Source: Terriglobales bacterium (GTDB taxonomy: Bacteria > Acidobacteriota > Terriglobia > Terriglobales > Acidobacteriaceae). Taken from it: 49,543 nt of DNA. Position 1 is the first letter of the stretch. Every line of letters starts with the position of its first letter. The translations under genes and the position numbers were made by a program. The stretch covers positions 1 through 49,543 of the forward strand of contig JASHOU010000043.1 of NCBI GenBank assembly GCA_030038475.1, in the 5' to 3' direction. Shown piece by piece: positions 9,534 to 24,744 of this stretch. Below the pieces are notes generated by a model, which was not told where the DNA came from, did not search any database, and worked only from the letters and a program-made list of their open reading frames with translations.

Positions 9534-9551
9534 ATTACCAGATCTGGTGAT
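9534..9551. promoter_or_regulatory. 18-bp near-palindrome upstream of glpK, candidate operator
   Basis: ATTACCAGATCTGGTGAT is a dyad with a perfect 12-bp core (ACCAGATCTGGT) and one mismatch in the outer arms. It lies about 280 bases before glpK, immediately before the 15-bp repeat array. Its shape suits a dimeric regulator. Whether it controls glpK or the divergent patatin gene cannot be told from sequence. Confidence 0.35.
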
Positions 9552-9558
9552 ATCTGAA

Positions 9559-9633
9559 GGACACGGTCTGCATGGCCATGGTCTCGCATGGACTGGTCTG
9601 CCAGGACATGGGATGCAGGGACAGGGTATGCTC
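9559..9633. repeat. 15-bp degenerate tandem repeat upstream of glpK
   Basis: Five units in exact 15-bp register: GGACACGGTCTGCAT, GGCCATGGTCTCGCA, TGGACTGGTCTGCCA, GGACATGGGATGCAG, GGACAGGGTATGCTC. A weaker sixth unit may follow. The array is non-coding; a frame through it would read a pentapeptide pattern ([10 protein letters not shown]) but lies before the real glpK start. Confidence 0.85.
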
Positions 9634-9828
9634 TGCTCCGGCTGTCCCGTGCGGCATTTCGACGCTGCAAACCAGATCGAGACTGGCAGATTCGATTCCG
9701 CCAGATCCCGCTGCCCGACAGGTAAACACATCCCGCGTAGAATGACCAATGACTACGGAAGTTCAGAACAACGACAGCCAGAACGAGGAAATCAGAAACA
9801 AAAAGCAGCATCATGGGAAGCAACAATT

Positions 9829-11352
9829 ATGACCAGTTATATTGGTGCCATTGATCAAGGGACGACAAGCTCGCGATTTATCGTGTTCGATCGTTCCGGT
9901 CGCATCGTAAGTGCTGCGCAAAGCGAACACGAGCAGATTTATCCCGCGCCCGGATGGGTGGAACACAACCCTAATGAAATCTGGCGCCGCACGGGTGAGG
10001 TGATTCAGGAAGCGATGGAACGTGGAGGATTGCGGCCGAAAGACCTGGCCGCCATCGGGATCGCCAATCAACGGGAAACGACCGTGGTTTGGCACAGAAA
10101 GACCGGAAAGCCGGTTGGCAACGCCATTGTCTGGCAGGATATGCGCGTCGCCACTGCGGTCGCCGAATTCGCTCGAGACGGTGGACAGGATCGTTATCGC
10201 TCCCGCACCGGGCTTCCGCTGGCGACCTATTTTAGCGGGCTTAAGATTCGGTGGATTCTTGAAAATGTTCTGGGCGCGCGTGCTGGCGCCGAAGCCGGCG
10301 ATTTGCTGTTTGGCAACATCGATACATTTCTCATTTGGCACCTCACCGGCGGAACGAGTGGGGGCATCCACATAACCGATGTGACTAATGCCAGCCGCAC
10401 GCAACTGATGAATCTTTTCACCTTACAGTGGGACCGGGATATCTTGAAAGAGTTCGATATTCCAATCGAAATGCTGCCGCAGATTGTTTCCAGCAGTGAG
10501 GTCTATGGCGTGGCGCAGTTGCCGGCCATCGCGGGCGTTGCCATCGCAGGCGACCTAGGTGATCAGCAAGCGGCTCTGGTTGGCCAAGGTTGTTTTCATC
10601 CGGGAGACGCAAAAAATACTTACGGGACCGGATGTTTCATGCTGATGAACACAGGATCGAAGCCGGTATTTTCTAACTTCGGGTTACTAACTACCGTGGC
10701 CTACAAACTCGGCCATACTTACCCAGCATGTTATGCGCTGGAAGGCAGCATCGCCATTACCGGCGCTTTGGTGCAATGGCTTCGCGATAACCTGGGACTC
10801 ATTGCGAAGAGCTCGGACATCGAAACCCTGGCGCGTACCGTAGATGATAACGGGGGTGTCTACTTCGTCCCCGCTTTTTCAGGGTTGTACGCGCCATACT
10901 GGAGAGAGGATGCACGTGGAGTAATTGCCGGCTTGACTCGCTATGCCAACAAAGGCCACATTGCGCGCGCGGCGCTGGAGGCGACGGCGTTTCAGGTACG
11001 CGAGGTCGTTGATGCCATGGCAAAGGATTCCGGTATCGCGCTCGATGCGCTGCGCGTTGACGGCGGCATGGCGAAGAACGATCTGTTGATGAACTTCCAG
11101 GCCGACATCCTGGGCAAGCCGGTGGTACGCCCGGTGGTATGGGAGATAACCGCTCTTGGCGTGGCCTATGCTGCTGGATTGGCTGTCGGTTTCTTTAAAG
11201 ATACCAACGAACTCGTCGCCAATTGGGCAATCGACTGCCGCTGGGATCCCAGCATGAATGTCGAAACGCGCGAGCGCCTTTGTCGCTATTGGAACAAGGC
11301 AGTGACGCGCTCGTTCGATTGGGTGGAACCAGCCGGAGCGCAGACCTTCTGA
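9829..11352 (+). CDS. glpK: Glycerol kinase
   Basis: This cytoplasmic enzyme phosphorylates glycerol with ATP to sn-glycerol 3-phosphate. At 507 residues it has normal family length and matches the FGGY kinase fold throughout: the N-terminal phosphate loop [12 protein letters not shown], the glycerol-binding [10 protein letters not shown] and NQRETTVVW segments, the metal/ATP region [12 protein letters not shown], and the C-terminal signature [19 protein letters not shown]. The start is set at 9829 because the conserved fold begins at its third residue and GGGAAG precedes it by eight bases; the reading frame stays open further upstream only through the non-coding 15-bp repeat. glpD follows 131 bases later, so the pair forms a glycerol-use unit feeding electrons to the respiratory chain. 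No glycerol facilitator gene is visible next to it. Confidence 0.97.
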
Positions 11353-11417
11353 GGGAAGATTGGCCGAGCGAAGATCGGCCGAGAGAAGACAGATTAAAAG
11401 AAACACTAGAGAAGAAT
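11343..11417. repeat. 15-bp degenerate tandem repeat spanning the glpK stop codon
   Basis: Five units in register: GACCTTCTGAGGGAA, GATTGGCCGAGCGAA, GATCGGCCGAGAGAA, GACAGATTAAAAGAA, ACACTAGAGAAGAAT. The first includes the last codons and stop of glpK (TGA 11350-11352); the rest fill the glpK-glpD gap. The two central units differ at only three positions. Confidence 0.88.
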
Positions 11418-11483
11418 GAGAGAAGCATCCGCAACTTACTCCGCGCATCAACAGCGCTATTCTGTGGATCGGAAAAGTCAGCC

Positions 11484-13070
11484 ATGAATCGAAACGAAAT
11501 GTGGCGGCGCTTCAACGCGCAGACCCAACCCTGGGATATGGTAGTCGTGGGCGGCGGCGCAACCGGAGTTGGCGTCGCAATCGATGCGGCCTCGCGCGGC
11601 TATGCGGTGCTACTGCTTGAGCAGAGCGACTTTGGCAAAGGCACTTCGAGCCGCAGCACCAAGCTGGCGCATGGTGGCGTTCGCTACCTCGAGCAGGGAA
11701 ATATTGGCTTGGTCATGGAAGCGCTCAAGGAGCGCGGCCTGCTTCTGGAAAATGCGCCTCATATTGTTCACGACCTTGCCTTCGTCGTGCCTAACTACGA
11801 TTGGTGGGAAGCTCCATTTTACGGGCTCGGCCTGAAGCTCTACCAGTTACTCGCGGGTAAGTACGGCTTTGGCTCATCGCGCATACTTTCCAGAGAGGAA
11901 ACGTTGAAGTATCTACCAACTTTAAAGACCGAGGGCCTGCGTGGTGGCGCAATCTACTACGATGGACAATTCGATGACGCGCGCCTGCTCATCCACATGG
12001 CAGTTACTGCCTTCGAGCAGGGAGCGACGTTGCTGAACTACGTGCGGGTCACCGGACTGACCAAAGACGCCCAGGGATTTATCGATGGGGTGACTGCGCG
12101 CGACGGAGTAACTGGCAATGAATTTCGCGCCCCAGCGAAAGTTGTTATCAACGCCACCGGCGCGTTCAGCGATCTGCTGCGGCTGACCGCAGAGCCAACC
12201 GCTGCCACCATGATTGCATGCAGCCAAGGTGTTCATCTGGTATTCGAGGCTAGTTTTCTTCAGGGTGAAAGCGCGATTTTGGTTCCGCATACAAGCGATG
12301 GGCGCGTGTTATTCGCGATTCCATGGCAAGGACACACGCTGGTGGGAACTACCGACACGCCGGTTGCAGCCGCCGCGCTCGAGCCGGTTGCGATGGAGCA
12401 GGAGATCGATTTTCTTTTGAACACCGCCGGGCAATACTTGAGGAAAGCGCCGACACGCGATGACGTGCTGAGCGTATTCGCGGGCATTCGGCCACTGGTG
12501 CGGGCTACGGGCGCAACTTCTGGCACGGTGGCGACCGCGGCATTATCACGCGATCACGTTGTTCACATCGATCGCTCGGGCTTGGTAACGGTATGCGGCG
12601 GAAAGTGGACGACCTACCGCCATATGGCCGAGGACTGTGTCGACCAGGCGGCAACGCTCGGCCAGTTGCCAGAAAGCCCGTGCACGACCCAGCATCTGCA
12701 CATACATGGCTTTCACGAAGCGGCGAAACAGTTTGGTCCGTTGGCGGTGTATGGTTCGGATGCGCCTGAGATTCGCAAGCTCATCGAAAATGATGCACTG
12801 CTTGGCCAACGCCTGTATCCTGCGCTTGCCTACGTGCAGGCCGAGGTGGTTTGGGCAGCCAGGCACGAAATGGCTCGAACCGTCGAAGACACGCTCGCCC
12901 GACGCACGCGTGCGCTGTTCTTGAATGCACGCGCCGCGCTCGAAATGGCGCCCACAGTCGCGGACTTGATGGCTGAAGAACTGGATTGGAGCGACTCCGA
13001 GCGCACGAAGCAATTGGACGGATTTAGAGAAGTGGCACAGAGCTATTTGCTGGCTCGTAGGTCGTCCTAA
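11484..13070 (+). CDS. glpD: Aerobic glycerol-3-phosphate dehydrogenase (FAD)
   Basis: This membrane-associated flavoenzyme oxidises glycerol 3-phosphate to dihydroxyacetone phosphate and passes electrons to quinone. The 528-residue protein opens with a Rossmann FAD site, VVVGGGATGVGVAIDAASRG (about 20-40), then the family signature GTSSRSTKLAHGGVRYLEQG. The middle region includes the VGTTDTP motif and the FAGIRPLVRA segment, and the C-terminal helical DAO_C domain includes ARHEMARTVEDTLARRTR. The start at 11484 begins right before the conserved fold. It sits downstream of glpK with a 131-base spacer that is mostly 15-bp repeat. The end lies six bases from the convergent STAS gene. Confidence 0.96.
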   Translation: MNRNEMWRRFNAQTQPWDMVVVGGGATGVGVAIDAASRGYAVLLLEQSDFGKGTSSRSTKLAHGGVRYLEQGNIGLVMEALKERGLLLENAPHIVHDLAFVVPNYDWWEAPFYGLGLKLYQLLAGKYGFGSSRILSREETLKYLPTLKTEGLRGGAIYYDGQFDDARLLIHMAVTAFEQGATLLNYVRVTGLTKDAQGFIDGVTARDGVTGNEFRAPAKVVINATGAFSDLLRLTAEPTAATMIACSQGVHLVFEASFLQGESAILVPHTSDGRVLFAIPWQGHTLVGTTDTPVAAAALEPVAMEQEIDFLLNTAGQYLRKAPTRDDVLSVFAGIRPLVRATGATSGTVATAALSRDHVVHIDRSGLVTVCGGKWTTYRHMAEDCVDQAATLGQLPESPCTTQHLHIHGFHEAAKQFGPLAVYGSDAPEIRKLIENDALLGQRLYPALAYVQAEVVWAARHEMARTVEDTLARRTRALFLNARAALEMAPTVADLMAEELDWSDSERTKQLDGFREVAQSYLLARRSS

Positions 13071-13992: not shown

Positions 13993-14301
13993 CTACCAAT
14001 TCCGCTCAGAGTGAGAAGCGGAGTCTTCTCTGAACTGGTTGCGCTTGCGATACACAATAAAAATCATGCCCACCGACATCAAAGTGGGAGGGACGATCAA
14101 AATCAGAATCCCGATCTGCAGCGCCTGAATCATTCGATTACCGGCAGAAGCAGCCGAAGTATAGCAGAGAGCGCAACTCTGTGAGAAGGCTGGGACGGGC
14201 ACAACAAGCAGCGCCAAGCTTACGACTGCAACAGCAGCCAGCAACGGACTGAAAATCCGAATCCTTTTTTGTAAGAGCGCAGATAACGTTTCTCTTAACA
14301 T
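13993..14301 (-). CDS. Small membrane protein at the end of the cytochrome oxidase operon
   Basis: A 102-residue protein whose ATG at 14301 has GGAG five bases upstream; a GTG two codons earlier overlaps that site. It has an N-terminal signal-like hydrophobic segment ending near PVPAFSQ, a short external motif SCALCYTSAASAGN with a CxxC pair, and one membrane helix (QIGILILIVPPTLMSVGMIF) followed by a basic tail. Orientation with the CxxC in the periplasm is inferred from the signal peptide. It is the last gene of the cox cluster, 22 bases after subunit IV. I do not recognise a named family; an assembly or copper/haem handling role is possible because of the CxxC but is not shown. Confidence 0.75.
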   Translation of the reverse strand: MLRETLSALLQKRIRIFSPLLAAVAVVSLALLVVPVPAFSQSCALCYTSAASAGNRMIQALQIGILILIVPPTLMSVGMIFIVYRKRNQFREDSASHSERNW

Positions 14302-14323
14302 CTTCACTCCTGACTACACTAAC

Positions 14324-14644
14324 TCACATAGGTGGCCTGGAAAATGGTGCGCCGCGTAACATGCGCGAGCTATCCGTCCAGCCAAATTGCAGCCCGAGAA
14401 GCACAGCAATCGTAAAGACGGCGACAAACAAAAGAAAACCCCGCTTTTCGGTCCCGAGGTGCATAAAATACAGAGCAGCCAGTCCAGCCTCGATAAAAGC
14501 GACCACCAACATGCGCATGAGCATTTGCGCGGCGTCGATATTTTGATAGGCGATCACGAATTGCAAAGCCGCCAATCCCAACAGGCAAATGTAGATGACA
14601 ATGTCTTTCCCGATTCCGTCATTCTTGCGCGCATCCGTCGTCAT
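14324..14644 (-). CDS. Cytochrome c oxidase subunit IV
   Basis: A 106-residue protein with three hydrophobic helices, the shape of the bacterial subunit IV (CoxD/CtaF) of aa3-type oxidases. A charged N-terminus is followed by IVIYICLLGLAALQFVIAYQ, then a helix containing AFIEAGLAALYFMHLG, and a third helix (FLLFVAVFTIAVLLGLQFG). The segment with FMHLG is typical of the family. AGGAG lies nine bases upstream. It follows the second subunit III gene by 26 bases on the same strand and precedes the small CxxC protein. In the family this subunit stabilises the complex and has no catalytic centre. Confidence 0.85.
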   Translation of the reverse strand: MTTDARKNDGIGKDIVIYICLLGLAALQFVIAYQNIDAAQMLMRMLVVAFIEAGLAALYFMHLGTEKRGFLLFVAVFTIAVLLGLQFGWTDSSRMLRGAPFSRPPM

Positions 14645-14670
14645 AGCATTCTGCTCCTAAGCGTTCCGGT

Positions 14671-15291
14671 CTAGTGAGTGAGATTCAAAAGGTAGACCAA
14701 AGGCACGACGAACATCCAAACCAGATCGACAAAGTGCCAGTATAGGCCCAACACCTCGATATCGTCGGCATTGTAGCGGCCGCCATTGTAACGCACGCCG
14801 ACCGCGAGCAGGGCAATTATGCCGCAGGTAACGTGAGTAAGATGCAAGCCGGTAATACTAAAAAACGATGCTCCGAACAACGGTGTTCCCCATGGATTTT
14901 TGAAAAGGGTCATGCCTTCACCAATAAGGCCCAGCCATTCGCGAATGTGCAGGAGAGCGAAAACGATGCCCAGAACCGCTGTAATGAGTATCCAACGAAA
15001 GGCGCCTGCTTTGTCTTGAGCTTTTGCCGAACGCAGACCGCAGAGCATGGTCAAGCTGCTGGTTAAAAGGACGAAGGTCATCAGGGCGACATTAGTGATG
15101 CTGTGGAACGGCCGCGGCCAGTCAGCGGTGCCATGGCGTAGAAATCCGTAGGCCACCAGGCAACCGGCAAAAGTCATGGTGTCGGCGATAATGAACAGCC
15201 ACATCGCGAACTTTTTCGTGGGAATCGAAAACGCTGGTCCTAAGGTAAGGCCGGTCGTGTGTCCTTCCATGGTCAAATCCGCCTGGCTCAC
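14671..15291 (-). CDS. Cytochrome c oxidase subunit III, second copy
   Basis: A 206-residue, mostly membrane-embedded protein of the haem-copper oxidase subunit III family, with about five helices, including KKFAMWLFIIADTMTFAGCL, a helix with TGLHLTHVTCGIIALLAVGV and the terminal YWHFVDLVWMFVVPLVYLLN. The last segment, (Y/L)YWHFVDLVW, is the family hallmark. The start is set at the GTG at 15291, because GGAGGAGGA lies directly upstream and because an ATG at 15357 would overlap the previous gene by 40 bases. It is the second of two adjacent and distinct subunit III genes. Known subunit III proteins bind lipids and guard proton uptake. Confidence 0.87.
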   Translation of the reverse strand: MSQADLTMEGHTTGLTLGPAFSIPTKKFAMWLFIIADTMTFAGCLVAYGFLRHGTADWPRPFHSITNVALMTFVLLTSSLTMLCGLRSAKAQDKAGAFRWILITAVLGIVFALLHIREWLGLIGEGMTLFKNPWGTPLFGASFFSITGLHLTHVTCGIIALLAVGVRYNGGRYNADDIEVLGLYWHFVDLVWMFVVPLVYLLNLTH

Positions 15292-15317
15292 GGCTCCTCC
15301 TCCGACGGTCGCTTCGG

Positions 15318-15986
15318 TTACAGTTTCATCAAAAGCAGCAAAAGCAGGTATATCCAAAGAACGTCCATAAAATGCCAGTAACGCGCGCTCGCAACCAACT
15401 GGTTGCGACGCAGAATACCCCTATGCAACTTACTAAGTATGTAGATAATCCCGCCCAAACCTCCCAGCACGTGCAGGGCGTGGGTAACGGTTAGCAAGTA
15501 GAAAAAAGAACTGCTGGGGTTGGTGGCGAGATACAGACCCTCAGCCCGTAACTGGAGCCATGCCACATACTGGCCCGCCACGAAGACCAGACCAAGAAAC
15601 AAGGTTACATAGAGCCAGCGCGCGGGATTCTCAACTCCAGTCTGAAAGCCGCGCATAAAAGCCGTGATGCGGCGCCGTGCAATTTCCAGAGTAACGCTAC
15701 TGGCGATAAGCACAAGAGTGGTGAAATACAGAATGGACGGCAGGGAGAAGGATTGCCAGTCGAGCGATGAGCCTTTGCGGACGAAAAGAGCGCTGGTGAA
15801 CGCCGCGAACATCATACTGACGGCAAAGACCACAACCCAGATGGCGGACGAAGTGGGTGGCGGCGAGTGGTCGATAGTTAATCGAAGGTCTCCATCCGCG
15901 GGAATCAGGTTGCGCCCACCACCGTTGCTGAAATCATCGGTATGCGGGTGATCGATCTGCGGCGGTTCGTGAATTGTGGTCGCCAT
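15318..15986 (-). CDS. Cytochrome c oxidase subunit III, first copy
   Basis: A 222-residue membrane protein of the subunit III family with a 45-residue soluble N-terminus and five helices. Recognisable segments are VVVFAVSMMFAAFTSALFVR with the following KGSSLDW, the ATNPSSSFFYLLTVTHALHVLGG region, and the closing ARYWHFMDVLWIYLLLLLL, which is the family hallmark. It follows subunit I by 59 bases and is followed by the second subunit III after 26 bases. The two copies are clearly diverged, so they probably occupy different positions or replace the missing helices of a full-length seven-helix subunit III. Confidence 0.88.
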   Translation of the reverse strand: MATTIHEPPQIDHPHTDDFSNGGGRNLIPADGDLRLTIDHSPPPTSSAIWVVVFAVSMMFAAFTSALFVRKGSSLDWQSFSLPSILYFTTLVLIASSVTLEIARRRITAFMRGFQTGVENPARWLYVTLFLGLVFVAGQYVAWLQLRAEGLYLATNPSSSFFYLLTVTHALHVLGGLGGIIYILSKLHRGILRRNQLVASARYWHFMDVLWIYLLLLLLMKL

Positions 15987-16045
15987 TAAGAATTTAGACT
16001 CCGGTTGGTACGAAGGTGTTGTCGGCTCGCTCCTAAAGGGTCGGG

Positions 16046-17830
16046 TTACTGTTCGTCGTTCTCCGTCTTAACTTGCTCTGGAGAAGCCTGCATCACATAG
16101 TCGCCGACCGAACTCTCCACGCCGTACTGATACGGATCGTGGTAAACCACGGGCAGCTTTCCTCCCCAATTATCAAAAGGCGGCGGCGTGGTCGTGCTCC
16201 ACTCGAGCGATGTGCCTTCCCAGGGATTATCGGACGCCGGTTTACCCCAAAATCGTGTATGAATCAGGTTGTAAAGAAAAATCGCCTGGGCTGCGCCAGT
16301 GAGTAACGCCGCGACAGTGATAAATTTATGCACCGGGAGCAGCGGCTGCAGATAGTCGTCAACAAAGACCGAGTAACGGCGCACATTGCCAACAATTCCC
16401 AGGTAATGAAAAGGCATAAAGATGCAATAGGCGCCAACAAAGCTGAGCCAGAAGTGAATCTTACCCAACGTCTCGTTCATCATTCTTCCAAACATCTTAG
16501 GAGCCCAGAAGTAGGTGCCGGCAAAAATGCCGAACATGGCCGCGACCGCCATCACCATGTGGAAATGGCCAACCACAAAGTAAGTCGCATGAAGCATGAT
16601 ATCGATGGAGGGCTGAGCCAGGAAGAAACCGCTGACGCCGCCACTGACAAACATGGAAATGAAGCCCAAGGCAAATAGCGACGCCGAGTTAATGCGCAGC
16701 TTGGAGCCATACAGACTGAAGATCTGGATCAGCACTATGATGGTCGCGGGGATGGTGATGATCAGCGTGGGGAAAGAGAATGCCAGCGCGGAATACGGAT
16801 TCATGCCGCTGACGAACATATGGTGGCCATAGACCATGTAACTAAGAACGGCAAGCGCTCCCATGGAATAGATAATTACTCTGTGACTCAGCAGCGGCCG
16901 TCGCATGTTCGTGATCAGGATATGCGAAACGATTCCGATGCCGGGTATGATCGCGATGTAAACTTCCGGATGTCCGAAGAACCAGAAAAGGTGTTGCCAG
17001 AGGAGAGTCGAACCGCCGGAGTGCTGCTGCAGTTGATCGCTTATGACTAGATTCGACGGCACAAAGAAGCTGGTGCCAGCCACGTGATCGAGAATGGCGA
17101 GGATACATGCCGGCATGAGAACCGCAAATGCCGTCAAACCCATGCATGAAGTAATGAACCACGCCCACGTTGTGAGGGGCAAACGCATGAGGCTCATGCC
17201 CTTGGTACGCAGATCAAGTGTGGTGGGGATGAAATTCAATGACCCTAACAACTGTCCGACGCAGAACAAGGCAATCGATGCCATCCACAAAATCACACCC
17301 ATACCCTGGCCCGGGCCGGCAATGGCTCCGACTGCGTTGAGCGGCGCATACTGCGTCCAACCGCCCAGGGTGGGACCATCGCTCACGAAGAACGACGCCA
17401 GCAGAACGATGAAACCGGTAAAGGTCACCCAGAATGACATCATGTTGAAGTGCGGGAACGGCATATCCTCGGCGCCGACCTGAATGGGCAGAAAGAAATT
17501 ACCGAAGGCCGCGAAGGGCGCAGTGGTGAGCACAAAAAACACCATGATGGTGCCGTGCATGGTCATTAACTGCAGGTAGTACTCCGGCGTCAAGACTCCA
17601 CCGGGAGCACCCGTCTTGGAAAGCAATTGTAGGCCGGGGATCGCGGCATTCGTCCAAGCCAGGTGGATGCGCATGATCCAGGAAAGGATCATTCCGATAA
17701 TCGCGGCCACCAGGGCCATGTCGTAGTACTGCTTGCCAATGACCTTATGGTCCAGACTGAAGACGTGCTTCCGAATGAAACTTGTCGGAGGAGCGTGATG
17801 GTGCACTGCGGGTGCTGACATATCATGCAT
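16046..17830 (-). CDS. ctaD: Cytochrome c oxidase subunit I (aa3-type, A family)
   Basis: The catalytic subunit, which reduces O2 to water and pumps protons across the inner membrane. At 594 residues it has twelve or more helices and all metal ligands: low-spin haem ligand His92 (MTMHGTIM), HPEVY at 287-291 carrying the CuB histidine, the gating glutamate and the cross-linked tyrosine, the CuB pair YGHHM (His336-His337), and the haem ligands in VVGHFHMVM (His422, His424). HPEVY places it in the A1 subgroup of proton-pumping oxidases. The GAEDMPFPHFNMMSFW loop is also conserved. Subunit II lies 48 bases upstream and subunit III 59 bases downstream, all on the minus strand. The N-terminus is histidine-rich (AVHHHAPP). 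Confidence 0.97.
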   Translation of the reverse strand: MHDMSAPAVHHHAPPTSFIRKHVFSLDHKVIGKQYYDMALVAAIIGMILSWIMRIHLAWTNAAIPGLQLLSKTGAPGGVLTPEYYLQLMTMHGTIMVFFVLTTAPFAAFGNFFLPIQVGAEDMPFPHFNMMSFWVTFTGFIVLLASFFVSDGPTLGGWTQYAPLNAVGAIAGPGQGMGVILWMASIALFCVGQLLGSLNFIPTTLDLRTKGMSLMRLPLTTWAWFITSCMGLTAFAVLMPACILAILDHVAGTSFFVPSNLVISDQLQQHSGGSTLLWQHLFWFFGHPEVYIAIIPGIGIVSHILITNMRRPLLSHRVIIYSMGALAVLSYMVYGHHMFVSGMNPYSALAFSFPTLIITIPATIIVLIQIFSLYGSKLRINSASLFALGFISMFVSGGVSGFFLAQPSIDIMLHATYFVVGHFHMVMAVAAMFGIFAGTYFWAPKMFGRMMNETLGKIHFWLSFVGAYCIFMPFHYLGIVGNVRRYSVFVDDYLQPLLPVHKFITVAALLTGAAQAIFLYNLIHTRFWGKPASDNPWEGTSLEWSTTTPPPFDNWGGKLPVVYHDPYQYGVESSVGDYVMQASPEQVKTENDEQ

Positions 17831-17878
17831 ACGTTTTGCCTCAAAACGAATCCACCCGCAAAACAGAGTGGGAGGGAG

Positions 17879-18682
17879 TTATTGCGCTGCCGCTTGCTGC
17901 TTTAACCACTTATCGAAGTCGTCCTGGGACATCACCTCAAGGTAAGCCTTCATGTTGTAGTGTCCCAGACCACAAAGCTGAGTGCAGACAATTTCGTACT
18001 TGCCAATTTTCGTAGCGGTGAAATGCAGAGAAACATCCAACCCCGGAACAAAGTCCTGATGCACGCGTAACTCACGCACATAGAAGGAGTGACCGAGATC
18101 CTTCGAGTGCATAAGGAGATGGATTTCCTTGTTCACCGGAATCGCAAACTCGGCGGTCACAATGTCGTCCTTGGCATCCGGATCGTTAGTGGTGTCGATA
18201 CCAAAAAAATTCTCCGTGCTCTCGTCGATAAGATTGGGATGAATGGCAGCGAATTTTCCGTCGGGCCCGGGATAGCGGAAATAGAACGCGAATTGCCCGG
18301 CCTGCACCTGAACCGGCATAGCGTTGGCCCCGGGCGGGCTAAGATACACGTCAGCCCAAACTTTTGCGCCAAAAACGCCGAGAGCCAGCACTTCTATACC
18401 GACAATGAGAAATGCGCCAATCACCAAGCCCGTGGCCCCGCCGGGGAACTTCTTGATCTTGCCGCCGGGATTGGGTTTGGCAAACATCCAGATGAAAATT
18501 GCCAGGACGAACTGCGCAGCGAGAAAGGCAATGCCTGCCTCGGCCATGGTCTCCGACATCTGATCGTCGATAATGGGGCCATGAATCGAGATGTCCTCGG
18601 GAGCCGACCAGGTGTGCATGATTATTGGAATCGCGGATGCGATCGCAATAACGATAATGGTGACCGCAAACAGTTTTGCCAT
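17879..18682 (-). CDS. ctaC: Cytochrome c oxidase subunit II (CuA)
   Basis: The electron-entry subunit, receiving electrons from a periplasmic carrier. It is 267 residues long, with three hydrophobic N-terminal helices (about 4-24, 46-67 and 83-108) rather than the usual two, followed by a periplasmic cupredoxin domain. The binuclear CuA ligands are complete: His198 (DLGHSFYV), Cys233, Cys237, His241 and Met244 within IVCTQLCGLGHYNM. The glutamate common in the CxExC loop is replaced by glutamine. There is no fused cytochrome c domain, so a separate carrier is needed; the dihaem cytochrome and cupredoxin genes upstream are natural candidates. GGGAG precedes the ATG by seven bases, and a GC-rich hairpin lies just before it. 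Confidence 0.95.
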   Translation of the reverse strand: MAKLFAVTIIVIAIASAIPIIMHTWSAPEDISIHGPIIDDQMSETMAEAGIAFLAAQFVLAIFIWMFAKPNPGGKIKKFPGGATGLVIGAFLIVGIEVLALGVFGAKVWADVYLSPPGANAMPVQVQAGQFAFYFRYPGPDGKFAAIHPNLIDESTENFFGIDTTNDPDAKDDIVTAEFAIPVNKEIHLLMHSKDLGHSFYVRELRVHQDFVPGLDVSLHFTATKIGKYEIVCTQLCGLGHYNMKAYLEVMSQDDFDKWLKQQAAAQ

Positions 18683-18693
18683 CTTAGCTCCCG

Positions 18694-18710
18694 CCGGACC
18701 ACCCGTCCGG
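18694..18710 (-). promoter_or_regulatory. GC-rich hairpin in the leader of the oxidase subunit II gene
   Basis: A perfect 6-bp stem (CCGGAC/GTCCGG) with a 5-base loop lies 11 bases before the subunit II ATG, between the cupredoxin gene and the oxidase genes. In the minus-strand transcript it sits immediately before the ribosome binding site and lacks a following U-tract, so it looks like an mRNA processing or stability element rather than a terminator. On the plus strand it is followed by TCGTTTT. Confidence 0.4.
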
Positions 18711-18773
18711 TCGTTTTAGCTTGCCTTACATAGCCCGTAGTTGTCTTAAATGCTTTCTGAGCAGTTCAATTCG

Positions 18774-19535
18774 CTACTTAGCTTTGAAGGTAAAGTCAGC
18801 CTTGGCCGATTGGCCGCCCGCGACTGTTACCTTGGCCGTTTGATTACCGTAGGTTTCCTGCCAGGCTGTCACTGTGTAACTTCCAGGCGGCACATTCTCG
18901 ATGGTGTAGGAACCATCTTCACCGGTAATTGCGTAGGGGCCCTTTACCACCGCGAAATACCCGCTCATCCAGGGGTGAATGTTGCACTTCACATGGATCA
19001 TTTCCACCGCTTTCCAGCTCTTGGTGACGGGCGGCGCTCCGGGCGGCTGCGACTGGTTCCACGGAATATTTCCAGTCAAAGGATTAGGCTCCGGGTGGAT
19101 ATTGTGAGCCGTCTGATCGCTGGTCTCGACCTTGAATTCCTGGCCCACGTCCATCGCTAGAACGTGCGGCGTATACAGGCAGTTTTTCTGATCGAATACG
19201 GGCACAGCCGTCGGCTTCGCGTTCAACGCGTCGCCCGATAATCCCTCGGAAATATAAAGAACAACGTTGCCCAATCCGTTGTCCTTGCCCACAACCACAA
19301 GCTCGAGGTGGGCTGGATCGTTGGCATGTTGCTTCACGCACCAGGGATCCTTCGACATGTCGATGCCCTTCATGTGCGGAGCCGTGCCATCGAGCTTAAC
19401 CGTACCGGTAATTTTGCCTTCCGGCGCCGCGCTCACCTCCCAGTTCGTCAATGACAGACTCAGACCGGCCACCACCAGACAGAGCAACAAACAGACCGAG
19501 ACCGCAGCCAACTTGCTATTGTCCTGACGCTTCAT
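18774..19535 (-). CDS. Periplasmic cupredoxin-like protein with a carboxypeptidase-regulatory-like domain
   Basis: A 253-residue exported protein. The N-terminal hydrophobic segment (about 9-30) is a signal peptide or anchor. The middle part has the ligand pattern of a type 1 copper site: histidine in QTAHNIHPEP (His144 or 147), then Cys184, His187 and Met190 in HVKCNIHPWMSGYFAVV. The final 50 residues (TGEDGSYTIENVPPGSYTV) are a beta-sandwich of the carboxypeptidase-regulatory type. AGGAGA lies five bases before the ATG. It occupies the third position of the respiratory operon, between the dihaem cytochrome and oxidase subunit II, so I infer a copper electron carrier, functionally comparable to rusticyanin although not obviously homologous. 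Similar proteins are sometimes named methylamine-utilisation-like, but no such pathway is present here. Confidence 0.75.
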   Translation of the reverse strand: MKRQDNSKLAAVSVCLLLCLVVAGLSLSLTNWEVSAAPEGKITGTVKLDGTAPHMKGIDMSKDPWCVKQHANDPAHLELVVVGKDNGLGNVVLYISEGLSGDALNAKPTAVPVFDQKNCLYTPHVLAMDVGQEFKVETSDQTAHNIHPEPNPLTGNIPWNQSQPPGAPPVTKSWKAVEMIHVKCNIHPWMSGYFAVVKGPYAITGEDGSYTIENVPPGSYTVTAWQETYGNQTAKVTVAGGQSAKADFTFKAK

Positions 19536-19571
19536 TTTCTTCTCCTAGTTGCGGAAGGCTTACCCTCCGGA

Positions 19572-20459
19572 TCACTGAGCGGGATTTGGATTTACCGGCT
19601 TCAACCCCAGTTGGTTGGCAATTTGCCGTTCTTTTTCGTTGTAGGCGTTGTGGGGCTGCAAACTGCGCAGATAAAATACCAAATCCCACGCCTCATCGGG
19701 TTTAATGTTATCGGCAAACGACGGCATCGGCGTGCCATCTAAACCGGTCATAAAGATTCTGTAGATATCAACGTCGGTGCTGCCGCACTTCGGCCGCGAA
19801 CCATCGGTGAAGTTGAAGGGCGCAATAGGCTGGCTGAGGTCGTCGGTAAGCGTAGAGGCCGAGGGGCCATTGGCCTTACCTTGCACGCCGTGGCACTTGA
19901 AGCACTGCATCCTGGCGAACACGTCTTGCCCGGCCTTCACCCGCTCCGGCGTGATTTCCGGCTCGGGTGGGATTTGAATGGGAGTGCCGGCCTTCTCCGT
20001 CTGCCAGCGCGGCGAGTAGTGCTTAATCCACGCAACCAAATCCGCCCGCTCCTGCTTTGATAGCGGAATCCACGCCGGCATATTCGAGCGGTCCATCCCC
20101 CGGCCAATCGTATCGTAGAGATCCTGGTCCGTGGGCAAAGTTCCGGTCGGAGTGGATCGGCACTTGAAAATCGCCAACTGGAAATTGCGCGGCTGGGCGT
20201 ACAGAGGGGTTAAAAACCACACCGCATTCTCGCCGTTACCGTCTCCCAGTTCACCGTGACAGCCTACACAGAACCGCCGGTAGGGCAAGGCCGCGGCTTT
20301 GGCATTGCCGGTGATATCGCCAACGTGGCTGCTCGCCGCCGGCGAATTCAGCCAATCCTGCAGTTGATACGTCGTGAGTTGTGCGTACGCGGCAGTAGAG
20401 AAACAGAGAGCGACAACCACGCTCAACAACAACGGCCACTTCAGTAAATTCGTATGCAT
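19572..20459 (-). CDS. Periplasmic dihaem cytochrome c
   Basis: An exported electron carrier with two c-type haem sites, CVGCH (about residue 64) and CFKCH (about 186), each in a class I cytochrome c domain. Probable axial methionines lie in MDRSNMPAW and DGTPMPSF. The signal peptide has a clear core (LLLSVVVALCFSTAAYA). Of two possible start codons I choose the ATG at 20459, which has AGAGGG at seven bases; the ATG two codons earlier touches that site. The protein (295 aa) is longer than a simple c4 cytochrome, having a linker between the domains (WQTEKAGTPIQIPPEPE). It sits between the Cyc2-like gene (15 bases) and the cupredoxin gene, the same position that cyc1 (a dihaem c4) occupies in the A. 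ferrooxidans rus operon. Confidence 0.9.
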   Translation of the reverse strand: MHTNLLKWPLLLSVVVALCFSTAAYAQLTTYQLQDWLNSPAASSHVGDITGNAKAAALPYRRFCVGCHGELGDGNGENAVWFLTPLYAQPRNFQLAIFKCRSTPTGTLPTDQDLYDTIGRGMDRSNMPAWIPLSKQERADLVAWIKHYSPRWQTEKAGTPIQIPPEPEITPERVKAGQDVFARMQCFKCHGVQGKANGPSASTLTDDLSQPIAPFNFTDGSRPKCGSTDVDIYRIFMTGLDGTPMPSFADNIKPDEAWDLVFYLRSLQPHNAYNEKERQIANQLGLKPVNPNPAQ

Positions 20460-20474
20460 TGTCATCCCTCTCTT

Positions 20475-21959
20475 TTAGAAGTCGAAGTCAATTCCGAACA
20501 GCAATTCGTCGGTATTTGTGTTGGTTGGAGCGCCAGACGGGCTGGTCGGTCCCGTCCCGTTTTGGTGGAATACGTTGAACTCGCCGTGGTAAGCAAAGCC
20601 GGCGCGGCTCGTCATAAACGGGTTATAGCGGTACGCAATTGTCCAGTTGTTGATGTTGCCCAGGTTGCCCGGAGTTCCGGGCGTCGCCTGCTGCGACATG
20701 CGTTCCGCCTCATAAACGCCCAGGATCATAAACTGCGGACTAACCACGTAACGCGCTTCGAAGGTGTAGCCGTTCCAGGTCGGCGCACGTGATCCCGGCG
20801 GAAGTGTTGTTCCCGGCACATTGTCCAGCGGGCAGCCGATGGCCGGGTCGTTAATGCAGGTCGCGGTCGCCGCTCCATTTCCGTTCGTGGCCACTGCATT
20901 GCCGTAACCCTGCCCAAACCACGCGTTATCTTCGCCGTGTTGCGTCACCACATTGAGATCAAAGTGCGGTCCCAAGTACAACTGTCCTGTGAAGCCCACA
21001 CGACTGAATCCCTTGTTGCCAATTCCCGAACCCGGGATGGGCACTCCTCCAGACGTCCGGTAGTATGTAGCAGCTTCTCCCACGAAGGCGTAGGCGCCAA
21101 CACGCTGCACCCCTAGTTTCCCCGCGTCGATACCTTGGTCAAAGGTAAAGAATCCGCTATAGGAGTTCGATCCCATAATCAGATTCACGTTTCCATCGCT
21201 CGAACTAAGCAACGCCGCTGAGATTCGCGTCCGATCATCCGCCGAGTGTCCCAGGTACTCCATCCCCAGCTGGTTGTCTCCCATCTGCCCGAAGATGTTT
21301 CCGTCTCCGACTGGAATGAAGTGATAGGTTTGATAGATTCCGCCGTTGGCCGTGAGCTGGACCATGCGCTTTTCGGAAAGCAGGTTGTTGAGCTCGAATC
21401 GGCCCAGCTTGACGTTCAACCAAGGGCTGTTGCCGATGTTATCCAGGCGGGCCATAACCGTTTCAAAGTGGAACGCTGCCGTGGAATCCGACGACGGGAG
21501 CACATAGAACGAGATGTTCTTCTCCAGAGTTCCGCCGGTATGGAAATCGAGCCCGCTCAGGTCAAAACCGGAAGACTCGATGCGAGTGACCGCCGTATTC
21601 GTTCCGGTCAATGTCCCGCCGGAGTACGTGTCTGTGTTGCTCAAGGCACTGTACCGGTGCCAAATCGGCGTGATGCGGAAGGTCACCGGCCAATACGCGG
21701 GATTTTGCCAGATCGGAGCATCCCGATCGTTCATCAACTGATAGCCGTTGTCTCGAAACTTCAGTCCGAAATTGTTCAGGATCGGCCACGACTCATGGCA
21801 CGCCGAGCAGCGAAGCCCGTATTTTCTGGCGAAGGCTGGCAACGCGCTCGCCGACTGGCTGGCGCTCAGAATCAGAAAGATTAACGTGAAAGCAGCGGCG
21901 AGGATGGAACTTGCCTGCGGCGGCTTCTGACAGAGATGAGACTGCGCCCATATACGCAT
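20475..21959 (-). CDS. Fused one-haem cytochrome / outer-membrane beta-barrel (Cyc2-like)
   Basis: A 494-residue protein with a signal peptide (cleavage near SASA, residue 38), then a single haem-binding motif CSACH at 51-55 inside PAFARKYGLRCSACHESW and the following LNNFGLKFRDNGYQ. The remaining 420 residues are rich in aromatic and alternating polar/non-polar residues, with periodic short strands and Gly/Asn turns, and end in LLFGIDFDF with a terminal phenylalanine, the outer-membrane barrel signature. One N-terminal haem plus a barrel is the architecture of Cyc2, the outer-membrane iron oxidase of A. ferrooxidans and marine iron oxidisers. I infer electron transfer across the outer membrane; the substrate is unknown. 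GAGGAG lies six bases before the ATG. It is the first gene of the operon leading to the cytochrome oxidase. Confidence 0.78.
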   Translation of the reverse strand: MRIWAQSHLCQKPPQASSILAAAFTLIFLILSASQSASALPAFARKYGLRCSACHESWPILNNFGLKFRDNGYQLMNDRDAPIWQNPAYWPVTFRITPIWHRYSALSNTDTYSGGTLTGTNTAVTRIESSGFDLSGLDFHTGGTLEKNISFYVLPSSDSTAAFHFETVMARLDNIGNSPWLNVKLGRFELNNLLSEKRMVQLTANGGIYQTYHFIPVGDGNIFGQMGDNQLGMEYLGHSADDRTRISAALLSSSDGNVNLIMGSNSYSGFFTFDQGIDAGKLGVQRVGAYAFVGEAATYYRTSGGVPIPGSGIGNKGFSRVGFTGQLYLGPHFDLNVVTQHGEDNAWFGQGYGNAVATNGNGAATATCINDPAIGCPLDNVPGTTLPPGSRAPTWNGYTFEARYVVSPQFMILGVYEAERMSQQATPGTPGNLGNINNWTIAYRYNPFMTSRAGFAYHGEFNVFHQNGTGPTSPSGAPTNTNTDELLFGIDFDF

Positions 21960-22246: not shown

Positions 22247-22321
22247 CGAGCGTAAGAGACTCTTGCAATCGGACCAGCGGAGCCAGTTGTGATCTGCGAA
22301 TGGAGTTGTGGGAGTGAGGGA

Positions 22322-23311
22322 GTGAAAGGCGGCGCTTCGTTTCACTGCAAAAGGTTTCATCTCGCGCAGTGTCTCCGCGTGACCGTCCTGTTGTTATTGT
22401 TGTGGGGCGCTGCGATTCCCTCGCACGCCCGCGACAAAGACGTCCTTGCCTACGGCGAGGGTCTGATCGTCAATATTCCGCTGCCCGAGCCGGAAGTAGC
22501 TCTGGCAGTAGAAGACGTGGCCGAGAGCACGATTATTCGGGGAACCAAGGAATACGATAAGGACCCGTATGTGACCGGGGCCGCCGCGGTCAATTCGACC
22601 CCGGTTTTTCCCGAATGGACCGAGGGTGGCAAGGTTTTTTACAAGGTTAAGAAGCACGCGCTCGATCCGCGCAATTTCAAAGATAGCGGCGATCTTGGGA
22701 CGCTGGCGGTGCGTTACATCGTGCAGCCACAGGGGTTCGGCAACACCGTCCTTCGCATTGATGCTCTATTCGTAGAGGATTCCCGCCATAGCGTTCATCA
22801 GTCGAGCGGGGTGGTGGAAAGCGCCGAATACCAGGACATTCAGGAACACCTCAACCAGATCGAACTGATGAAAAAGGAAACCGCTGAAGCCTTGCGGGCA
22901 AAGCAAGAGAAACAGGCGAGGGACAATTTTGGCTTGGGCACTGACAATACGATCCTGCTCAGTACGCCACCTTCGAGCAGCAGCGACAGCACCAGCAGCC
23001 AGTCTGGGTCGGATTATGCGCTGCAATCCTCTGCCCTGCAATCCTCTGCCGCATCCGCGCCCGAGGAGGATCAGCAGCCTGAAACTTTGGAGCAGCACGT
23101 CGCAAAGTTGCGCCAGCAAGTGGAACGGCGTGTCAAAAAGCCCGGCGCTCCACTGCAATCGGCTCCGTTCCACAGCGCCAGCACGCTAACATCTCTGGAC
23201 CCGGGCGTCGAAGTTCTGATTCTGATCTCGACGCCCTACTGGTACGGAGTGGAGACCCACGAAGGCCAGCATGGCTGGATTCGAAAGGACGAACTGGAGC
23301 AGGTGCCATGA
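22322..23311 (+). CDS. Exported protein with a C-terminal bacterial SH3 domain
   Basis: I do not recognise a named family. The start is set at the GTG at 22322, which has GGGAG at seven bases and opens a signal peptide (VTVLLLLLWGAAIPSHA); a GTG eleven codons earlier is the alternative. The mature protein has a conserved-looking domain (about 40-170) ending in SSGVVESAEYQDIQEHLNQI, a short coiled-coil segment (LMKKETAEALRAKQEKQ), a Ser/Gln-rich linker containing two identical 15-bp repeats, and a C-terminal SH3-like fold (GVEVLILISTPYWYGVETHE, then GWIRKDELE). SH3b domains often bind cell wall. Its last codons overlap the next gene (ATGA), so the two are translated together. It faces away from the respiratory operon. 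Confidence 0.75.
   Translation: MKGGASFHCKRFHLAQCLRVTVLLLLLWGAAIPSHARDKDVLAYGEGLIVNIPLPEPEVALAVEDVAESTIIRGTKEYDKDPYVTGAAAVNSTPVFPEWTEGGKVFYKVKKHALDPRNFKDSGDLGTLAVRYIVQPQGFGNTVLRIDALFVEDSRHSVHQSSGVVESAEYQDIQEHLNQIELMKKETAEALRAKQEKQARDNFGLGTDNTILLSTPPSSSSDSTSSQSGSDYALQSSALQSSAASAPEEDQQPETLEQHVAKLRQQVERRVKKPGAPLQSAPFHSASTLTSLDPGVEVLILISTPYWYGVETHEGQHGWIRKDELEQVP
23021..23050. repeat. Two identical 15-bp units in the SH3-protein linker
   Basis: CTGCAATCCTCTGCC occurs twice in tandem, encoding LQSSA-LQSSA. A related pair with 15-bp spacing (APLQS-APFHS codons) follows at 23146-23175. Being exact copies, these are the least diverged of the 15-bp arrays in the window and so probably the youngest. 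Confidence 0.8.
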
Positions 23312-24744
23312 TCGGGCAGATGATTGCGCTGAGGATCGGGCTGAGTTCTGACACAGCGCTTCGCCGCACATCTGCGTTCCTGTTTCTGCTCGCAACTACG
23401 CTGCTGGCGGCGGCCGCACAGGAAGGCGACAGTGTCGGCAAAAAAAGTGCGCCCGCGCAGCAGCCTTCGGGCTCGTATGAGCGCACTTTCACTCAGCCCA
23501 AAAGCGCGGTGGAAAAAGCTCTGAAGGATTTGCTGCCCTCGATGCACGGACGCTTGCCCGTGCTTGAAGGCTTCGCCTCGCCCGGCGAACATCCCTTGAG
23601 CCAATACCAGCGTGCTTATTACCAGGCCTCCGTGCAGGTCAGTTCCACCGCTTCAGGCGGATCCGTCGTGCGCGTGCACGCCGAGGTAACGGCGTGGTAC
23701 GAGGATCCAACCCCATCTCATTCCGGCTACCGGGTGCTGACTTCGAATGGCCGCCTCGAGTCGGACCTGCTCGATCAGCTAAGCGATCGGTTAGGCGTCT
23801 CCAGCGCAGCCAATACGAGTTCGAGCGGACTTTCGAGCATGAGTTTTCCCTCGGTAGCTCATGCCACCAAGCCGGCAGAGCAACCGCCGGCGGCAGGAAA
23901 AGACGCTGCTGACAAGGCTGCAACCGAACCTTCGATTTCAGCCCCGATGCCGCAGTTGCCACAGGCCGGGCGCACGCTTTCGTCATCTTTAGCTCAGGGC
24001 CTGCCGGCCGCGAAACCGGCGGACGTGAAAAGCTCGCCCGGCGACGCCGACAAAAGCAAAGCCGACGACGCCTCCTTGCGTGAAGAAGCGGCAAGTTTGG
24101 AGGAAGTGCTCAAGAACCAGGCGCATCCCAGGAATCTGGTTGCGATCAAGAAAAATGGGACTCCGGTGGTTTCGTCTCCGAGTTTGAGCGCCAAGACTCT
24201 GTTTTTGGCGAGCGCACACGATGAGTTTGAAATGCTCGATTTTAACCAGGACTGGGTTCATGTTCGAATTTCCGGCCTGTCGCGGGGATGGATCTGGCGT
24301 ACCAGCCTGGAGATGCCCGAGGGGATTTCGGACGTTCCCACCACAAATGCGAACGGCACCCCAGTAGCCGCCGACCTGTTTCAGGTGACGCGCGAGGAAA
24401 CCGCGCCCTTCCCGGGAGATTGGACGCCTTTGCGCGGCAAGAACGTGAAAATCATTTCCGTGCAAAAGATTCAGGAAGATGAGCGCAACAGCGGTGCGCA
24501 GGCCAAGCTGGAATATGCGAAATCCTTGCTCGACAAAAACTACGCTGAATTGGCCGGAAAATCTCAGGAGCTCGCCGGAGTGGTGTTGATCTTTGATTCG
24601 ATCGATGGGGGCATGATCGCCGTAACCTCGCCCACGGTTCAGCAATGGAAAGCGGGCAGGTTGAACGACGCCGCGCTTTGGCATCACTGCTATTTCGATC
24701 CACCGGAGACGTTCACCGTTTCCACTCCAACCAGCAACCCATAG
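23308..24744 (+). CDS. Second exported SH3-domain protein, paralogous to its upstream neighbour
   Basis: A 478-residue protein whose ATG overlaps the upstream stop codon (ATGA), indicating translational coupling. The N-terminus is a signal peptide (RTSAFLFLLATTLLAAAAQ). The region at about 50-160 (VEKALKDLLPSMHGRL through SNGRLESDLLDQLSDRLG) shares the layout of the first protein, with a strand-rich segment ending in GRLES/GVVES followed by a helix. A long Ala/Ser/Pro linker follows (about 170-250), then an acidic helix, an SH3-like domain (VAIKKNGTPVVSSPSLSAKT with RGWIWRTSLE) and a further domain of about 110 residues with a basic helix (EDERNSGAQAKLEYAKSLLD). Function unknown; an envelope role is inferred from export and SH3 content. 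Confidence 0.72.
   Translation: MIGQMIALRIGLSSDTALRRTSAFLFLLATTLLAAAAQEGDSVGKKSAPAQQPSGSYERTFTQPKSAVEKALKDLLPSMHGRLPVLEGFASPGEHPLSQYQRAYYQASVQVSSTASGGSVVRVHAEVTAWYEDPTPSHSGYRVLTSNGRLESDLLDQLSDRLGVSSAANTSSSGLSSMSFPSVAHATKPAEQPPAAGKDAADKAATEPSISAPMPQLPQAGRTLSSSLAQGLPAAKPADVKSSPGDADKSKADDASLREEAASLEEVLKNQAHPRNLVAIKKNGTPVVSSPSLSAKTLFLASAHDEFEMLDFNQDWVHVRISGLSRGWIWRTSLEMPEGISDVPTTNANGTPVAADLFQVTREETAPFPGDWTPLRGKNVKIISVQKIQEDERNSGAQAKLEYAKSLLDKNYAELAGKSQELAGVVLIFDSIDGGMIAVTSPTVQQWKAGRLNDAALWHHCYFDPPETFTVSTPTSNP

Follow-up and report, generated by a model that had tools for sequence, protein, structure and literature searches.

A conserved acidobacterial operon joins a Cyc2-like cytochrome-porin to an A-type oxidase in rus-like order

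INTRODUCTION

In Acidithiobacillus, Acidiferrobacter and Acidihalobacter, the rus operon runs cyc2-cyc1-cup-coxBACD and is followed by rus (PMC10654088). For A. ferrooxidans, electrons are described as passing from Cyc2 to rusticyanin and then by Cyc1 to the oxidase, and a dihaem cytochrome c4 as reducing the cupredoxin AcoP. Here, we analyzed a cluster of nine genes at positions 13993-21959, minus strand, of a 49,543-nucleotide stretch of DNA (the window; contig JASHOU010000043.1 of assembly GCA_030038475.1) from a Terriglobales bacterium of the Acidobacteriota. We propose that this operon probably forms a conduit from the outer membrane to oxygen, which draws electrons from outside the cell and has Fe(II) as its likeliest donor.

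Cyc2 proteins are defined by the motif AXPXFAR[Q/K][T/Y] before a CXXCH haem site, PXL after it and a porin, with proteins of fewer than 365 residues excluded (PMC8406198). Acidobacterial homologues of Leptospirillum Cyt572 have already been noted as putative donors; the passage on Cyt572 mentions no oxidase operon, unlike the arrangement found here (PMC10654088). Cyt572 has been grouped in Cluster 3 with neighbors from Acidobacteria and Nitrospira. Judged by description, the first protein of the operon is likewise a cytochrome-porin. Cultured Acidobacteria are reported to have A1 caa3 oxidases beside bc1, A2 caa3 oxidases beside alternative complex III (ACIII) genes and, in some, single extra homologues (PMC8407424). 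What appears to be new here is the cyc2-to-oxidase operon, the presence of Cyc2-type homologues in Acidobacteria being known (PMC10654088).

By kind of product, the first seven positions agree with rus (cytochrome-porin, dihaem cytochrome c, cupredoxin, coxB, coxA, coxC and coxD), and a probable haem O synthase gene lies close by, as in rus. An earlier note on this DNA had counted the third place of the copper protein as a departure from rus; since the published third gene is cup (PMC10654088), it is a likeness instead. The same note had called the locus a complete rus-like electron wire, and this is not supported: no rusticyanin was found in the operon or the genome, the dihaem protein is near 6h5l_B and its solved relatives are not called cytochrome c4, the cupredoxin has an architecture different from that of AcoP, and the Cyc2-like protein belongs to a distant clade. 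Two coxC genes and an additional CxxC gene are further differences. The link from a Cyc2-like protein to an oxidase is supported, in that a dihaem cytochrome, a copper protein and an oxidase of the A type follow in rus order; a set made of the rus components themselves is not. The best reading is an operon that is rus-like in its working but is not a rus operon, and with no rusticyanin found, we rejected that name.

RESULTS AND DISCUSSION

Gene content and conservation of the operon

Nine open reading frames were confirmed, placed as the earlier note had them, in the order cyc2-like, dihaem cytochrome (cyc1 here), cupredoxin (cup here), coxB, coxA, coxC, coxC, coxD and a gene for a CxxC membrane protein. 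The tight spacing on one strand described in that note was also seen: the gaps measure 9 to 91 bases, given a start of the second coxC at 15291. This GTG, which stands behind GGAGGAG, is the likelier start by sequence over the listed TTG at 15357.

To place the operon among its relatives, two short patterns drawn from this clade were run against GTDB species genomes, and the best 80 of the 265 stretches obtained were analyzed. All 80 carry acidobacterial titles, and 15 of these titles read Candidatus Sulfotelmatobacter. Downstream of cyc2 and on the same strand, 54 of the 80 loci contained cyc1, cup, coxB, coxA, coxC2, coxD and the CxxC gene (coxC1 was not required for this count, and gene order was not scripted but taken from the listed loci). 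Less than 8.2 kb of contig remains after cyc2 in 24 loci; among these, L119 and L128 offer no space for the set, and the 1.7 kb left in L149 hold SH3 genes but not cyc1. When only uncut loci are considered, cyc2-cyc1-cup-cox stand together in 54 of 56. Among 20 fetched relatives, which overlap with the 80 loci, the set was complete in 17 and cut by the contig end in 3. The operon is conserved and not a chance arrangement.

At E values up to 10, the genome of the window yields a single Cyc2-like match of this kind. Of 61 genomes (this one and 60 relatives), 49 contained some Cyc2-like protein at an E value of up to 1e-5; in 29, including this one, the E value was under 1e-100. Among 199 genomes drawn evenly across the phylum, only 6 matched at E up to 1e-30, again with this one included; the trait is therefore local to certain lineages.

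A Cyc2-like protein of a distant clade

The first gene (20475-21959) encodes 494 amino acids with one CXXCH, a C-terminal phenylalanine and, judged by eye, a signal-peptide-like N terminus, as the earlier note had described. The published upstream motif is present as ALPAFARKY at residues 39-47, a proline is the fourth residue after the single haem site (CSACH-ESW-PIL), and the length lies well above the minimum of 365 residues. The whole defining stretch, ALPAFARKYGLRCSACHESWPIL (residues 39-61; 21777-21845, minus strand), comprises columns conserved in 58 aligned rows. Here and below, alignments consisted of the window protein and 57 of 77 Cyc2-like proteins, 58 of 69 cupredoxins, 24 of 71 dihaem cytochromes, 18 of 53 CoxA and 17 of 59 CoxB proteins, respectively. 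By its sequence, the first protein is a member of the Cyc2 family in the sense of the published definition, as part of a distant clade. It shares with the family the defining sequence features and a porin-type barrel model, and the Acidobacteriota clade differs from other Cyc2 proteins by FARKY in the motif and by sharing its cluster with an oxidase (PMC8406198).

Searches of Pfam, NCBIfam and PHROGs assigned the protein to no significant family, and no PDB sequence (single-sequence search at E up to 1, profile search at E up to 10) or plasmid (E up to 0.01) matched it. With an acidobacterial relative of the FARQTG type as the query, nine plasmid records were found, of which seven were opened and six taken as references. 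A profile of these six proteobacterial Cyc2-type proteins, built without the clade of the window protein as a stand-in for a FeGenie hidden Markov model and having the full upstream motif in three of its six members, gave the protein an E value of 1.2e-12, with the match confined to residues 20-82. The next best of the 425 window frames reached only E 0.6, and none of 200 shuffles did better than 0.53. One plasmid record filed under A. ferrooxidans (CP084173.1, 49686-51053; L162) carries a Cyc2-like gene annotated as hypothetical. Its match equals that of an Acidiphilium cryptum plasmid in score, identity and matched part, so that the organism named in the record may deserve a second look.

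The structure model, built from 58 sequences, had a mean predicted local distance difference test score (pLDDT) of 77.9. It forms a barrel of about 16 strands: 18 strand elements are listed, one of double length and some short, so that the count is inexact. Foldseek ranked OprP (2o4v, E 1.9e-11) first and OprO (4rjw, E 2.6e-11) fourth; in the VIA comparison, PorB (3a2s) gave Z 24.3 with a root-mean-square deviation (rmsd) of 3.3 over 306 aligned residues, and OprP Z 22.8 with 3.6 over 319. OprP and OprO have also been named for Cyc2 of Mariprofundus (PMC8406198). We rejected barrel likeness as an indication of function. The porin suggested by the earlier note is supported by the sequence definition, the barrel model and the profile match together.

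When 47 proteins were placed in a tree, one branch (98, starred) separated the 21 cox-linked proteins from all others. Three barrel histidines stand out in this clade, with H213 and H238 present in 58 of 58 rows and H341 in 57 of 58. At the aligned positions, H213 and H238 have no counterpart in 15 of 15 other Cyc2-like proteins, as far as a weak barrel alignment allows. The three histidines are a possible metal or substrate site.

Dihaem cytochrome and cupredoxin

The second gene (19572-20465) encodes a dihaem cytochrome c, as the earlier note had stated, with two CXXCH sites and two Cytochrom_C stretches. C66-C69-H70, M129, C188-C191-H192 and M247 were invariant in 25 of 25 sequences, and the two methionines are likely further haem ligands. 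Its best solved relative in a PDB profile search was 6h5l_B (E 2.9e-70), which we take to be a dihaem cytochrome of Kuenenia. At E up to 0.01, this search returned 21 sequences, none named cytochrome c4, a comparison made by names. "Cyc1" in the strict sense was rejected as a name for this protein.

In the cupredoxin (18774-19535), Pfam recognized the carboxypeptidase-regulatory part, and the copper domain emerged from the structure model (pLDDT 91.4). Residues of about 110-197 form a plastocyanin-like domain (7pcy, Z 11.0, rmsd 2.1, 87 aligned), enclosed by a carboxypeptidase-regulatory (transthyretin-like) fold made up of the flanking residues from 40 to 253 (1qmu, Z 11.5, rmsd 2.1, 79 aligned). 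The C184, H187 and M190 pointed out in the earlier note are present and, together with H144 and H147, invariant in 59 of 59 aligned proteins; so are C66, C119 and H124. Like AcoP of A. ferrooxidans, the protein is an oxidase-linked cupredoxin with an N-terminal hydrophobic helix, through which it is probably anchored in the membrane. The ligands proposed for AcoP are H85 and C159-X6-H166-X4-M171 (PMC4059628). In contrast, the loop found here reads C184-X2-H187-X2-M190, and AcoP differs further in that its copper domain is not enclosed in this way. Foldseek returned only 10 matches of the cupredoxin at E up to 0.001 and placed AcoP at rank 48 (TMq 0.14).

An A-type oxidase without the K-channel lysine

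The oxidase genes matched the families expected from the earlier note: coxB (subunit II, 17879-18682) COX2, coxA (subunit I, 16046-17830) COX1, coxC1 (subunit III-like, 15318-15986) and coxC2 (subunit III, 14671-15291, with the start inferred from GGAGGAG) COX3, and coxD (subunit IV, 14324-14644) COX4_pro. The small CxxC membrane protein (13993-14307), which ends the conserved set in relatives as well, had no significant family in Pfam, NCBIfam or PHROGs.

In CoxB, H198, C233, C237, H241 and M244, which we take to be the CuA ligands, were invariant in 18 rows. In CoxA, N111, D122, N129, N199 and E289, presumably the D-channel positions, were invariant in 19 of 19 rows, as was the GHPEVY site; in the wider set, GHPEVY and GA[EP]D were each found in 52 of 53 proteins. 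The CuA, haem and CuB ligand residues and the D-channel residues of an A-type oxidase are thus retained in the 18-19 rows. The PTGIK of the best solved relative aligns with PATII-type residues of the operon CoxA, and its lysine, presumably that of the K-channel, is replaced in all 53 CoxA proteins (by V in 20, I in 16, L in 9, M in 7 and A in 1); the window protein has I365 at this position. The proton-pumping oxidase of the earlier note calls for caution, since the D-channel residues are there and the K-channel lysine is not.

Like the A1 and A2 caa3 enzymes, this is an A-type haem-copper oxidase; unlike them, it adjoins cyc2-cyc1-cup and is without the K-channel lysine, so that it looks like a further acidobacterial type beside A1 and A2. 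It is a naturally occurring example of an A-type enzyme lacking this lysine. A literature search on K-channel loss returned one unrelated paper; since K-channel variants of COX1 are discussed in PMC8239418, the loss has perhaps already been described.

Electron path and alternative readings

A Cyc2-type porin with an N-terminal haem would take single electrons from a small donor entering its pore. Because the donor must enter the pore, as argued in PMC8406198, it would most likely be dissolved or chelated Fe(II). The dihaem cytochrome would then carry electrons across the periplasm and the cupredoxin hand them to the CuA of CoxB, and CoxA would reduce O2, with energy conserved via the D-channel. 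We drew the path from donor through Cyc2, dihaem protein, cupredoxin and CuA to oxygen because no rusticyanin was found. Gene content, order, conservation, the Cyc2 motif, the barrel model, the fold and ligands of the cupredoxin and the metal-ligand residues of the oxidase were seen directly; from these we infer co-transcription, the order and direction of electron transfer, and Fe(II) as the donor.

Several observations weigh against such a conduit, the first of them concerning Cyc2. A branch of 2.44 changes per column parts the cox-linked clade from 13 FARQTG-type and plasmid proteins, and the tree program warns that joins of this length may be false. Function in divergent Cyc2 clusters has been called uncertain (PMC8406198). 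In the model, the haem region (residues 1-48), which in a Cyc2 protein would be expected to plug the pore from the periplasmic side, has a pLDDT below 50, and the Foldseek superpositions are loose (TMq 0.52 for OprP and 0.49 for OprO; rmsd about 9). The long branch to the proteobacterial Cyc2 proteins would fit a conduit of the same build whose natural donor is not Fe(II) and might be reduced humics or phenolics, another metal or a secreted mediator. The earlier note, too, had allowed for Fe(II), another metal or a reduced external compound. The clade-specific H213 and H238 would suit a different substrate, and many isolate names indicate palsa, bog or fen, which are humic-rich. On the other hand, Fe(II) is plentiful in peat. 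The Cyc2 proteins of verified activity, those of A. ferrooxidans, Leptospirillum (Cyt572) and Mariprofundus PV-1, oxidize Fe(II) (PMC8406198), and we regard a donor other than Fe(II) as rather unlikely.

Other observations loosen the link between Cyc2 and the oxidase. The genome of the window has four COX1 genes, and on contig C88 (L157, 3595-9963) a second cluster has the order cup-coxB-coxA-coxC-coxD-coxC-CxxC-ctaB, with neither cyc2 nor cyc1 along the 15 kb examined. Its CoxA is 62% identical to that of the operon and likewise without the K-channel lysine, and this oxidase type is hence not tied to Cyc2. Two of the 80 loci, L100 and L147, have only cyc1 and cup, without cox within 10 kb. 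Of the six phylum-wide matches, four were examined further: L172 has cyc2-cyc1, then SH3 genes and cup, without cox; L173 has cyc2-cyc1 and nothing further in 6.7 kb; L174 and L175 have no other operon gene nearby. The second cluster on C88 could mean that cup-coxBACCD is a general alternative oxidase fed mainly by ordinary periplasmic carriers, with Cyc2 and the dihaem protein as one optional input. The bit scores point the same way, since both CoxA proteins without the lysine, with 516 and 551 bits, miss the CoxA equivalog cut-off of 670.75 bits and the other two oxidases of the genome, on C162 and C201, lie above it (683 and 700 bits); the COX1 on C162 retains PTGIK and adjoins a cytochrome b gene. 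L149, whose contig ends at 1.7 kb, also departs from linkage. However, the 54 of 56 uncut loci that keep the four elements together argue for one pathway, which makes a general oxidase unlikely in our view. An 8-CXXCH protein (L157, 12342-13688) is encoded near the C88 cluster on the opposite strand.

The remaining points against an iron-oxidizing conduit are negative results. No rusticyanin gene stands in the operon, and the TIGR03095 model matched nothing in the genome, which is 98.4% complete, at E up to 1; 6 of 14 control genomes matched, none above the cut-off, and hence there was no true positive control. RuBisCO was not found in the genome (5 of 14 control genomes were above the cut-off), nor was MtrB_PioB (1 of 14 controls matched, below the cut-off). 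With neither RuBisCO nor rusticyanin found, autotrophic growth on iron of the Acidithiobacillus kind is therefore unlikely; given the missing RuBisCO, the pathway more probably supplements heterotrophic growth than serves Calvin-cycle autotrophy. The missing RuBisCO would also agree with a protective rather than an energy-yielding role, in which Fe(II) or another reductant is oxidized at the cell surface or O2 is scavenged, and coupling could be altered where the K-channel lysine is missing, as in 53 of 53 CoxA. Yet the D-channel residues, which a proton pump needs, were invariant in 19 of 19 rows, and we consider protection improbable. Scans for promoter-like sites (4 versus 6.1 in shuffles) and terminator-like sites (13 versus 11.2) were neutral on a single transcript. 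Sequence does not reveal direction, and electrons might instead flow outward, with the porin-cytochrome delivering them to an external acceptor. Export is very improbable given the terminal oxidase in the same cluster.

Significance of the shared order

The surprising point is the identical order built from different parts, which may reflect convergence or replacement in place. Tentatively, soil Acidobacteriota might have put together a second complete respirasome for iron oxidation, independently of Acidithiobacillus, with the same order, a different Cyc2 clade, dihaem protein and copper protein and an oxidase lacking the K-channel lysine; on balance, this is doubtful. If it were true, bacteria that recur in palsa, bog and fen genomes would have an inherent capacity for facultative Fe(II) respiration. 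The same gene order with other parts is a clean test of the requirements of a chain from the outer membrane to oxygen.

To judge by isolate names, the carriers are Acidobacteriota repeatedly recovered from palsa, bog, fen and soil samples. Iron or a different electron source outside the cell may support their respiration, and if Fe(II) is oxidized, they would have a part in the iron cycling that influences how carbon is buried and released at those sites. In the literature on acidobacterial Cyc2 and iron oxidation, surveyed mostly at abstract level, we found no published account of the operon, nor were these bacteria found named as iron oxidizers; a search on Acidoferrum gave nothing relevant.

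Neighboring genes and related loci

A STAS-domain gene (PF01740; 13076-13921, minus strand) follows 71 bases downstream of the CxxC gene. In L033, L035, L072, L087, L089, L091 and L099, a STAS gene stands between cup and coxB (the contig of L099 stops there). Past the 3' end, on the opposite strand at 9547-13070, the window has ordinary genes for an FGGY kinase (glycerol kinase-like) and a DAO protein (glycerol-3-phosphate dehydrogenase-like). Two divergent genes on the plus strand (22289-23311 and 23308-24744), each with an SH3_3 match below the cut-off, were kept as neighbors in 20 of 20 fetched relatives; in L150 and L172, proteins with SH3_3 matches sit between cyc2 and the later genes. 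The UbiA-family prenyltransferase gene beyond them (PF01040; 24968-25945, plus strand), present close to the operon in 13 of the 20 fetched relatives, is by its family probably ctaB, encoding haem O synthase.

Beside remote Cyc2-like genes, a cup-like match was present in 16 of the 20 loci L051-L070 (the exceptions being L059, L065, L067 and L068), and Cyc2 with this kind of cupredoxin may be the basic unit. In two loci, L052 (7373-11680) and L063 (7368-12106), the gene after a remote acidobacterial Cyc2-like gene encodes this kind of cupredoxin, and a gene for a Pyr_redox_2/Fer4 protein comes next; L063 additionally has a Rieske protein after the Cyc2-like gene. Loci of this type are perhaps a Cyc2 branch that sends electrons uphill.

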